Source: Gloeomargarita lithophora Alchichica-D10
GTDB lineage: Bacteria; Cyanobacteriota; Cyanobacteriia; Gloeomargaritales; Gloeomargaritaceae
Assembly (NCBI RefSeq): GCF_001870225.1
Contig: NZ_CP017675.1
Coordinates: forward strand, 2,936,106 to 2,979,010
Direction: 5' to 3'
Length of the DNA stretch: 42,905 nt
Shown: positions 8,460 through 42,760 of the stretch, piece by piece
Position numbering within the stretch: position 1 is the first letter of the stretch
Layout: each line of letters opens with the position of its first letter
Notes under the pieces: generated by a model
The model's input: the letters and a program-made list of their open reading frames with translations, nothing else
Database searches by the model: none
What the model was told of the DNA's origin: nothing
Program-made: the position numbers and the translations under genes

Positions 8460-9194
8460 ATGGAAGCCGAAGAACTCCTGGAGCTTTATGCACAAGGGGA
8501 GCGCAATTTTAGCCGGGTGAATTTGAGTGGGGTGGATTTGTCCGGGGTTGACCTGCGGGGCATTGACCTGACGGCGGCCAAATTGAGTGGTGCCTATCTC
8601 ACCAATGCCAACCTGGATGGGGCGATTTTGAACCAGGCAATCCTGCGAGAAACCGATTTGAGTGGGGCTTCCCTGCGGGGGGCGGGGTTGATGATTGCCA
8701 AACTGAGCGGGGCGATTCTCTGGCAAACCGACCTCACCCAGGCGGATTTGGGGGGTGCCAACCTGCTCCAGGGCGACCTTAGCCATGCCAAATTGGTGGA
8801 GGCGGATTTGAGTCGGGCTTTGTTGGGGGGTGCCAATTTGACCCAGGCCAATCTCAGCCAGGCCAACCTGTGGGATGCGGATTTGAGTCGGGCGAATTTG
8901 CGCCAAGCCGATCTAACCGAGGCTTCCCTGCGGGGGGCGGATTTATCGCGAGCCGTCCTGCAAGGGGCGGTGCTGAGTCGGGCCAAACTATCCAGTGCGA
9001 TTCTGAATGGTGCCAATTTGCGGGAGGCCAAACTGGACGGGGCGAATCTCACCCAGTGCGACCTGAGCAGTGCCAATTTGCGGGAGGCCAATTTCAGCGA
9101 AGCCGACCTGACCGGCACGATTTTCAACCGGGCAATTTTGACCGGCACCATCTTACCGGCGACCCATGCCCCGGAAGCCGTCCCCCACGCTTAA
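8460..9194 (+). CDS. Pentapeptide-repeat protein
   Basis: A 244-residue protein made almost entirely of tandem A(D/N)Lxx pentapeptides from about residue 18 to 235, forming a right-handed quadrilateral beta-helix. The ATG at 8460 has a clear AGGAG site at 8452-8456; the upstream TTG at 8441 is unlikely. No membrane segment or other domain. Such proteins are numerous in cyanobacteria with mostly unknown roles. The last 29 bases overlap the start of the YraN gene. Confidence 0.92.
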   Translation: MEAEELLELYAQGERNFSRVNLSGVDLSGVDLRGIDLTAAKLSGAYLTNANLDGAILNQAILRETDLSGASLRGAGLMIAKLSGAILWQTDLTQADLGGANLLQGDLSHAKLVEADLSRALLGGANLTQANLSQANLWDADLSRANLRQADLTEASLRGADLSRAVLQGAVLSRAKLSSAILNGANLREAKLDGANLTQCDLSSANLREANFSEADLTGTIFNRAILTGTILPATHAPEAVPHA

Positions 9195-39534: not shown

Positions 39535-39650
39535 AGGAATCTGGAAGCTAAACGGTATATTTTGTAGCGGTTTTTACAAATAGCTTCCGATTATCCTAAT
39601 TGTAAGCCCCGAATTTTGGGTAATCTCTTCGGGTAATGTTGTGGTTCCTC

Positions 39651-41279
39651 ATGGCAGATGATGCACCCATTTGGTTGACGCAGGTTTGTCCCTGGCAGGC
39701 TACGGTTTGGCAACGGGCTTTGGCTTCGCAAAATGTGTCAGTGCAATGGCAGTCCGAGGGGGATTGGCAGAGGGTATGGACTGATAACCCCCGCCTGTGG
39801 TTGTTGGATGTGGCGGTCACGGCGCAGGATTTAGCCATTTATTGTGAATGGTGGCAGGGTCATTGTGCCCATATTCCTTTGGGGTTGCTGGATTCCCGAC
39901 AGAGGCAGGTGCCGGAGTCGCAACAAATCCAGGCGCAACAGTGGGGGGCGTTGGGGGTACTGCCCGGTTTTGACCGGGAGCATCTCACCCGCTCGGTAGC
40001 GGCCAATTTGCGGCAGGTCTTGGCCTGGTTGGGGGTGGGGGAATTGGATAAAGCCCGCCTGGTGCCGGTGTTGGTGGCCTTACCGGAACTGGCTCTGGAG
40101 GCACCCGCCCCGGTGACCCACAAGCAGGAATCTCGTCCCAATCTGGCACCCCCAACCCCCCAACCCACGACCAACTCGCCAATATCCCCGGTGACTGCTC
40201 ATCCTCCGGTGGCCAAAGGGGTGCGCCGGTATCGGGGGGTAGAGGTGTCCCCCCCCAGTCAGGAACCGCTATCACCGTCCTCCCAACCGGGTGTGCGTTA
40301 CCGGGGGGTTGAAGTTGCACCGACCAGCCGGGAATTGGTCAAACCACCATCCCAGACCGGCGTGCGTTATCGGGGGGTGGATATGCCGCCGACTGCACCC
40401 GCCGTATCCCCCCCGCCGGTGGAAATCCCTGCTGTCCGGTCAGAGGCATTGAAACCACCCCCCCCGCCCAAACCCTGCCTGGGAGGGCGTTACCAAATCC
40501 TCTATCCCTTGGGGGTGGGGGGCTTTTGCCAAACCCTGTTGGCCTTGGATATGCAACGTCCCGGCCATCCCCAATGTGTGGTCAAACAACTCCGCCCCAG
40601 CCAGGAGGATGCCCAACATCTGGCGATTGCCCGCCGGTTGTTTCGTGCAGAGGCGGAAACCCTGGAAAAGTTGGGACAACATCCCCAAATTCCCCGTTTG
40701 TTGGCCTATTTCGAGCAGGAAGAGCAGTTTTATCTGGTGCAGGAGTATATCCAGGGGAATTTACTGCACGAAAAGCTGATCCCCGGCCAAGCCCTCCCGG
40801 AGCAGGAAGTGGTGCAGATGTTGTGGGAATTGCTGGAAATTTTAAGATTTGTGCATGGGCAAGGGGTGATTCACCGGGATATTAAACCCACGAATATCAT
40901 CCGCCGTCAAGAGGATAACCAGCTGGTCTTGATTGATTTTGGGGCGGTGAAAACCATTGGTCAAACAATGACGGCGGCGCGCACGGTGGCGGTGGGTACC
41001 CAGGGCTATGCCCCCCTCGAACAATGCCTGGGGCAACCGGTGTGGGGCAGTGACCTCTACGCCCTGGGGATGGTCGCCATCCAAGCCTTGACCGGCCAAG
41101 CTCCCCAAATCCTCACGGTGGATGGGAAAACCGGGGAATGGCAATGGCGACCCGGATGGGTGAGTGCCCCCTTTGCCAATATTCTGACCAAGCTGGTGCG
41201 GCGGGACTGGATGCACCGTTATCGCACCACGGGGGAAGTGATGGAAGCCCTGCACCCCCTCACGGATTGGTTGCGTTAG
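39651..41279 (+). CDS. Serine/threonine protein kinase with repeated RYRGVEV linker
   Basis: A 542-residue protein. Residues 1-140 form an unrecognised domain with conserved-looking Trp residues (WLTQVCPWQATVWQRAL). Residues 150-275 are a Pro/Ser/Gln-rich linker containing RYRGVEV three times at a fixed 23-residue spacing (about 193, 216, 239). The kinase domain (about 279-540) has LGVGGFCQTLLALD (Gly loop), CVVKQL (Lys), HRDIKPTNII (catalytic loop), DFGAVKTIG (DFG) and GTQGYAPLEQ. All catalytic residues are present. No membrane helix is seen, so it is probably soluble. ATG 39651 chosen; ATG 39636 is also in frame. Confidence 0.92.
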   Translation: MADDAPIWLTQVCPWQATVWQRALASQNVSVQWQSEGDWQRVWTDNPRLWLLDVAVTAQDLAIYCEWWQGHCAHIPLGLLDSRQRQVPESQQIQAQQWGALGVLPGFDREHLTRSVAANLRQVLAWLGVGELDKARLVPVLVALPELALEAPAPVTHKQESRPNLAPPTPQPTTNSPISPVTAHPPVAKGVRRYRGVEVSPPSQEPLSPSSQPGVRYRGVEVAPTSRELVKPPSQTGVRYRGVDMPPTAPAVSPPPVEIPAVRSEALKPPPPPKPCLGGRYQILYPLGVGGFCQTLLALDMQRPGHPQCVVKQLRPSQEDAQHLAIARRLFRAEAETLEKLGQHPQIPRLLAYFEQEEQFYLVQEYIQGNLLHEKLIPGQALPEQEVVQMLWELLEILRFVHGQGVIHRDIKPTNIIRRQEDNQLVLIDFGAVKTIGQTMTAARTVAVGTQGYAPLEQCLGQPVWGSDLYALGMVAIQALTGQAPQILTVDGKTGEWQWRPGWVSAPFANILTKLVRRDWMHRYRTTGEVMEALHPLTDWLR

Positions 41280-42543: not shown

Positions 42544-42760
42544 CGAGCGTTTGACCTCCGGGGATGATCATTGGAGCTTTGACCTCCATCCTTTGAGGTT
42601 TAGGCTGGAAAACTTGAGCTTAGACGTGGACTGTTTGACCTCTGAGCTTGATCAGCCGAGCTTGAACCTGCAAACTTTGAGCTTTGACCGGCAACTGTCG
42701 AGCTTTGACTTGCAACTGTCGAGCTTTGAGCTATAACCTTTGACCTCTGAGCTTGATGAT
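42544..42760. repeat. Degenerate short repeat array based on GAGCTTTGAC / TTTGACCTCTGAGCTTGA
   Basis: A low-complexity stretch built from GAGCTT-, TTTGACC- and CTCTGAGCTTGA-type words. The cleanest part is three near-identical 21-base units at 42658-42678, 42679-42699 and 42700-42720, plus a partial fourth to 42730. Both strands are open in one frame because 21 is a multiple of three (7-residue repeats such as SFDLQLS). The remaining sequence to the right edge (42761-42905) shows no gene. Confidence 0.7.

Follow-up and report, generated by a model that had tools for sequence, protein, structure and literature searches.

Three YRG words in the linker of a cyanobacterial pseudo-receiver and kinase fusion protein are probable copies of a docking motif

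A Ser/Thr kinase gene of Gloeomargarita lithophora Alchichica-D10 carries three RYRGV words in the linker that precedes its kinase domain, and this arrangement raises the question of what such an array does. The gene lies in the window, by which we mean the whole stretch of 42,905 nucleotides that was analysed, and the genome is a single contig of 3.05 Mb. An earlier sequence-only reading had proposed that the linker could be a docking or self-phosphorylation array feeding the adjacent kinase, and had likened the RYRGV word to the short motif of the cyanobacterial DUF4278 proteins. The comparisons described here indicate that the gene is most likely a lineage-specific kinase fusion bearing three copies of a cyanobacterial docking word. 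Its features are as follows.

39636..41279, + strand: gene for a receiver-like domain, a YRG-word linker and a Hanks-type Ser/Thr kinase (547 aa)
39651..40040, + strand: putative pseudo-receiver (REC-like) domain, from AlphaFold and Foldseek
40083..40478, + strand: Pro/Ser-rich linker; low model confidence in the part covered (pLDDT about 46-68)
40221..40247, + strand: word 1, VRRYRGVEV, with Arg two residues before the Tyr (position -2)
40290..40316, + strand: word 2, GVRYRGVEV, with Val at position -2
40359..40385, + strand: word 3, GVRYRGVDM, with Val at position -2
40491..41105, + strand: PF00069 protein kinase domain with HRDIKPTN and DFG motifs

The open reading frame (ORF) at 39636-41279 contains a further in-frame ATG at 39651. 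The kinase domain (residues 286-490) scored 110.2 bits against the PF00069 cut-off of 31.7 bits, and both the HRD and DFG motifs were present, as in the Hanks-type Ser/Thr kinases (Spk) of other cyanobacteria. The AlphaFold model of the N-terminal domain, which was of high confidence across most of the domain, revealed five strands alternating with five helices, and the Foldseek matches to this model were receiver domains (e.g., 5e3j, 4nic and the CikA pseudo-receiver 5jyu), which places the domain in the receiver fold. The window protein showed no match to the Pfam family Response_reg at E ≤ 1, and all four kinase-free relatives tested matched this family below its cut-off. Receiver domains are marked by an acidic pair after strand 1 and a Lys after strand 5. 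Because both hallmarks were absent from the alignment, the N-terminal domain is best described as a probable pseudo-receiver.

Translation confirmed that the words recur at an exact period of 23 residues, or 69 nucleotides: the Tyr residues are at positions 199, 222 and 245 (codons at 40230, 40299 and 40368), and two of the words read RYRGVEV and the third RYRGVDM. The sequence between them was also as rich in Ser and Pro as had been claimed, with 32 Pro in the 131 residues of the linker (residues 151-281), which contains no Trp. Three RYRGV words were not obtained by chance in any of 200,000 shuffles of this linker. The pairwise identities of the 69-nucleotide units were 41/69, 31/69 and 37/69, and the array was absent from the Tandem Repeats Finder list at a score of 30; these two results ruled out a recent tandem DNA duplication as its origin, and the low identity of the units indicates that the pattern is made by the words rather than by a recent DNA copy. 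A lone RYRG is common; what is unusual is the array. The DNA pattern for RYRG was found at 36 places in the genome, and was thus rarer than its reversed control (76 places); of the 30 places that were read, 15 lay in frames of at least 100 aa, several of which were recognizable ordinary enzymes.

Among the matches listed, the closest orthologue was that of genome G049 (79% identity), which had the same neighbours as the window gene, namely a RodZ-like gene, a gene of about 185 aa and a biotin-synthase-like gene; these identities were taken from Pfam for the window genes, and gene order and protein starts were compared for G049. A further copy was found in G096 (L034, contig C155), a draft assembly of about 170 contigs, where the linker/kinase ORF was out of frame with the receiver-like ORF; this gene is probably broken or mis-assembled. 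The number of words in the window, G049 and G096 was 3, 2 and 2, and the step between them 23, 24 and 22, respectively, so that an exact step of 23 was found in the window gene alone. In G063, which belongs to another genus of the same family, a receiver-like ORF contained two words 25 residues apart (RRYRGVVV and RYRGSSY), and the contig ended within this ORF. Among these four genomes, the presence of the words was conserved, but their exact number and spacing were not. The comparison of repeat number in orthologues that the sequence-only reading had suggested did not refute it: the two orthologues found both keep the words, though in different number and spacing. Among the matches listed, the kinase fusion was confined to the genus of the window (the window gene, G049 and the probably broken G096 copy), and four other genomes of this genus (G016, G035, G074 and G085) showed no match to the N-terminal domain.

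The N-terminal domain was far more widespread than the fusion. When the first 255 residues of the protein were used as the query, matches were found in at least 116 of the 388 genomes searched in the class, with E-values of 1.3e-21 to G063, 2.0e-16 to G007 and 6.9e-15 to G179. At E < 1e-15, loci that were not chosen by motif yielded 71 distinct ORFs. Of these, 63 were standalone proteins (<360 aa), and 35 of the 63 carried the word within their last 14 residues; the family profile behind these three counts included the window's own sequence, whereas the search of 388 genomes was independent of the profile. Tails were highly uniform among the 35 word-bearing relatives, as 31 ended exactly in [YF]RGxxY-stop and 32 had a basic residue two positions before the Tyr (R in 30 and K in 2). 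The remaining 28 standalone relatives had no word, and the domain therefore works there without it. Tail conservation in the family alignment was not used as evidence, since 5 of its 11 sequences had been chosen by motif. A profile search of genome contigs was made with a first alignment that was too diverse and then with a tighter one, which gave 5 loci.

These kinase-free proteins resemble the window protein in having a homologous N-terminal domain, followed by a linker with the word at its end; they differ in that they have no kinase and the word forms their C-terminus, whereas in the window protein the words are internal and the kinase lies downstream. The retention of the word on relatives without a kinase is as expected of a docking motif, and on this point the earlier proposal was supported. 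Among the matches listed, the N-terminal domain also occurred in longer proteins of different make-up, in ORFs of up to about 1,250 aa. Reading the neighbours of eight family loci by eye, without a family search, revealed no conserved neighbour. In a single case (L175), the surroundings of a gene with the tail included two ORFs of note, both recognized by eye, one having a C-terminal stretch that resembles a kinase and the other being DnaJ-like.

When 145 genomes were searched for the tail itself, with RxYRGxxY-stop expressed as a DNA pattern, enrichment was weak, at 30 matches compared with 22 for the reversed control. The signal of the word is in which ORFs bear it and where, and not in raw enrichment of the pattern. 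Twenty-one of the matches were in ORFs of at least 100 aa ending in the tail, comprising 16 members of the receiver family, 2 carbonic anhydrases (Pro_CA) and 3 others, and the other nine fell in ORFs of fewer than 70 codons. The searches covered genomes within the phylum. In 68 sampled genomes of the phylum outside the class, the pattern gave 2 matches, both in ORFs of fewer than 20 codons, and the tail is therefore taken to be absent from these genomes. Several YRG-like words were also observed in two further ORFs, L281 (170 aa, minus strand) and L119:829-1524, which end in RIYRGLKY or RRQYRGAAY; L119 scored 20.3 bits against DUF4278, below the cut-off.

To compare the linker with DUF4278, we used the Pfam profile (PF14105), which aligned in register with residues 199-248 at 14.7 bits (E = 0.041; cut-off, 25.3 bits). 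DUF4278 consists of three YRG words. In the 29 instances read from the 30 best-scoring loci, the steps were 23/24 in 21 and 23/23 in 3, the latter all of one family; the 23, 23 steps of the linker thus agree with the spacing seen in 24 of the 29. All invariant columns of DUF4278 in 27 sequences were within the words, and in synthetic arrays of varied step the profile score was highest at steps of 23-25. Shuffling the spacers of the linker did not lower the score, as the mean was 16.5 bits compared with 13.7 for the real linker, and 1495 of 2000 shuffles scored at least as high as the real sequence; by this control, the linker contains no conserved DUF4278 spacer sequence. Full membership of DUF4278 was ruled out by the sub-cut-off score and by spacers that contribute nothing. 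As far as sequence comparison can tell, the linker and DUF4278 have words and spacing in common and no demonstrable homology. The comparison with DUF4278 made by the sequence-only reading was thus apt for the architecture, three YRG words mostly 23/24 apart, but not for membership of the family. DUF4278 was found in 36 of the 49 genomes sampled from the class and in none of 68 genomes of the phylum outside it, and among 14 named control genomes only in Synechococcus elongatus. The DUF4278 protein encoded in the window's genome has FLG as its first word, and in its AlphaFold model, which is weak (pLDDT 62.9, pTM 0.22), every word lies at the turn between two paired strands. A search for a solved DUF4278 structure found none (best E, 0.36).

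The carbonic anhydrases among the tail-pattern matches led us to consider CcaA. The tail of S. elongatus CcaA docks on CcmM, as demonstrated by a crystal structure and mutants (PMC8580825). According to that report, the last 17 residues (the C2 peptide, GWLAPEQQQRIYRGNAS) bind each protomer of the CcmM trimer with a KD of about 2 uM. R265, two residues before the Tyr, forms two salt bridges, and condensates fail to form in the R265D mutant; Y267 contacts L81 of CcmM, W257A halves condensate formation, and a 15-residue peptide without GW does not bind (PMC8580825). In CcaA-like loci (L127-L156), the tail read RIYRG in 27 of 30, although the structural description names no contact for the R and G after the Tyr (PMC8580825), which hints at a second reader of the tail. 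We found no other published ligand with a YRG word besides this CcaA tail (RIYRG) in the open-access literature. A search of the same literature for the C-terminal motif of Hfq/PilB as a related word gave nothing, and PirA, a small P-II partner, was set aside as a further YRG protein, as the available text of its paper contains neither 'YRG' nor 'DUF' (PMC8092223).

CcmM is encoded in the window's genome with four Rubisco-small-subunit-like modules, and seven of the eight published contact residues of its pocket are identical (the equivalents of F123, N124, R126, D141, E143, Q159 and D163); the equivalent of L81 is T. When 116 genomes were searched at E ≤ 1e-40, neither the window's genome nor six relatives of the same genus showed a CcaA match. 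All 16 of the CcaA-less genomes that were read retained the seven pocket residues, and one of seven CcaA-bearing genomes has N at 141, in a table that holds 23 of 30 loci, seven having been dropped for want of a matching ORF, and in which presence flags were entered by hand. Conservation of the pocket did not track the presence of the N-terminal domain. None of the nine f2 genomes in the sample gave a CcmM match, and all nine have DUF4278.

The YRG word is probably a docking tag, because several cyanobacterial proteins that are unrelated to each other bear it, and one of them is known to dock by it on the carboxysome scaffold. We consider it likely that the three words are copies of a cyanobacterial short linear docking motif, x-Y-R-G-x-x-[Y/V/I], which in the pseudo-receiver and kinase fusion would tether the protein to a partner. 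That the array instead feeds the kinase domain next to it was the part of the earlier proposal that was not supported. The Ser/Pro-rich spacers do adjoin the kinase, but the word contains no conserved Ser or Thr, it is present on kinase-free relatives, and linker words were found in only 2 of 46 kinase ORFs examined (the window kinase and its G049 orthologue), a set in which at least one gene is counted twice and many loci extend just 1,500 bases past the match. The pseudo-receiver and YRG-word linker thus set the window kinase and its orthologues apart from the other cyanobacterial Hanks-type kinases in this set, and the absence of linker YRG words from 44 of the 46 ruled out a kinase-specific array. 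In five of these 44 rows, of which L200 and L241 are one gene, an LNYRG that is unrelated to the words occurs upstream, within a region that we take to be CHASE2-like. Among the N-domain loci, a kinase catalytic motif was found in the window gene, the orthologue and one adjacent separate gene only. An array for self-phosphorylation by, or substrate docking to, its own kinase domain is very improbable. The array probably did not originate as a kinase device, and the simplest history is that the word arrived with the receiver protein and that the kinase joined later in the window's genus. Even less credit is given to mimicry of P-II, in which the words would act as a pseudosubstrate or competitor of the P-II (GlnB) T-loop (RYRGSEY, in which Ser49 is the phosphosite) and the kinase would regulate, or be regulated by, P-II partners. 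The P-II of the window's genome (L073; PF00543, 109.6 bits) has the T-loop ERYRGSEY, and words 1 and 2 share RYRG-x-E with it. The kinase specific for P-II is described as not yet identified (PMC11863333), with SpkB named as a promising candidate (PMC10651672). The pseudosubstrate reading is attractive, but a match this short is easily a coincidence, given that this genome encodes several unrelated enzymes that also contain RYRG; moreover, the T-loop is a loop within a folded protein, the tails of the relatives have R or K rather than E at position -2 and no kinase, and the work in Synechocystis implicates SpkB and not a kinase of the window's architecture (PMC10651672). This makes P-II mimicry highly improbable.

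The remaining two alternatives name a more specific role for the word. The linker might be a degenerate DUF4278 that acts as DUF4278 does, as a stabilising or partner-binding module like the N-terminus of the glutamine synthetase inactivating factor IF17 (GifB); DUF4278 has been associated with IF17 and glutamine riboswitches (PMC6316151). The in-register profile match, the spacing, the score peak at steps of 23-25 and the shared YRGV word all point in this direction. Against it, the score is below the cut-off, the spacers are unrelated and add nothing, position -2 in DUF4278 is mostly L or G and not R, the orthologues have their words at other steps, and 191 of 2000 arrays with random word spacing still reached the real score, so that we regard a degenerate DUF4278 as decidedly unlikely. 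The boldest candidate, and the only partner with a published precedent, is trimeric CcmM: the words might dock on its gamma-carbonic-anhydrase domain, in the pocket that holds RIYRG of CcaA, and the kinase would then be a client of the carboxysome or pre-carboxysome condensate, its three words matching the trimer. The RxYRG core that word 1 shares with CcaA, the position at the end of an unstructured tail, multivalency towards a trimer, and a pocket that is preserved in the window's genome and in genomes without CcaA are consistent with this possibility, and CcmM of Synechocystis is a Ser/Thr phosphoprotein that is less phosphorylated in an spkB mutant (PMC10651672). The likeness is incomplete, however. 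CcaA has a Trp and a Gln-rich, two-turn helix running up to R-I-Y, which it needs for docking, whereas the kinase linker is Trp-free with Pro-rich flanks; its words are internal and tripled, and the R-x-Y-R-G core with the essential Arg at -2 is found in word 1 and is absent from words 2 and 3. The R and G after the Tyr, for which no contact is named, count against CcmM as well, as do the phosphosites of Synechocystis CcmM, which two other species do not share and whose role in condensate formation is doubted (PMC10651672). As DUF4278 words occur in the f2 genomes without a CcmM match, CcmM cannot read every such word. In view of the missing Arg, Trp and helix, the DUF4278 words of the f2 genomes and the pattern of pocket conservation, docking in general is the likely function of the words, and CcmM as the partner is a minority bet that we consider unlikely. 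It would be bolder still to propose that RxYRGxxY is a general tag of carboxysome clients in CcmM-bearing cyanobacteria, and that CcaA-less lineages keep the pocket for the pseudo-receiver proteins and for the trimer-matched three-word kinase of this lineage, which would regulate carboxysome assembly by phosphorylation; this extended proposal is quite unlikely.

Under the docking reading, a pseudo-receiver 'adaptor' protein with kinase-free relatives that often end in RxYRGxxY-stop would have been fused to a Hanks-type kinase, and the words would tether the fusion to a partner. We infer that three copies about 23 residues apart could provide avidity for a multimeric partner, that the pseudo-receiver might modulate the tethering, and that the kinase might act on the partner or on whatever the partner gathers. 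In the open-access literature, we found no published link joining CcaA, DUF4278, the pseudo-receiver family and the kinase. One short word unites CcaA, with its known docking on CcmM, DUF4278, with its link to the control of glutamine synthetase, a pseudo-receiver family that is widespread, and the kinase of one lineage. If a shared reader of this word were found, it would suggest functions for at least two poorly characterised families and would show how kinase signalling gets to a defined complex such as the carboxysome.

Two other repeats were observed in the window. At 42657-42729, downstream of the biotin-synthase-like gene, Tandem Repeats Finder identified a 21-base tandem repeat of 3.5 copies. 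A 75-base tandem repeat of 1.9 copies is located at 8748-8893, and its unit, read by eye, would resemble a pentapeptide repeat.
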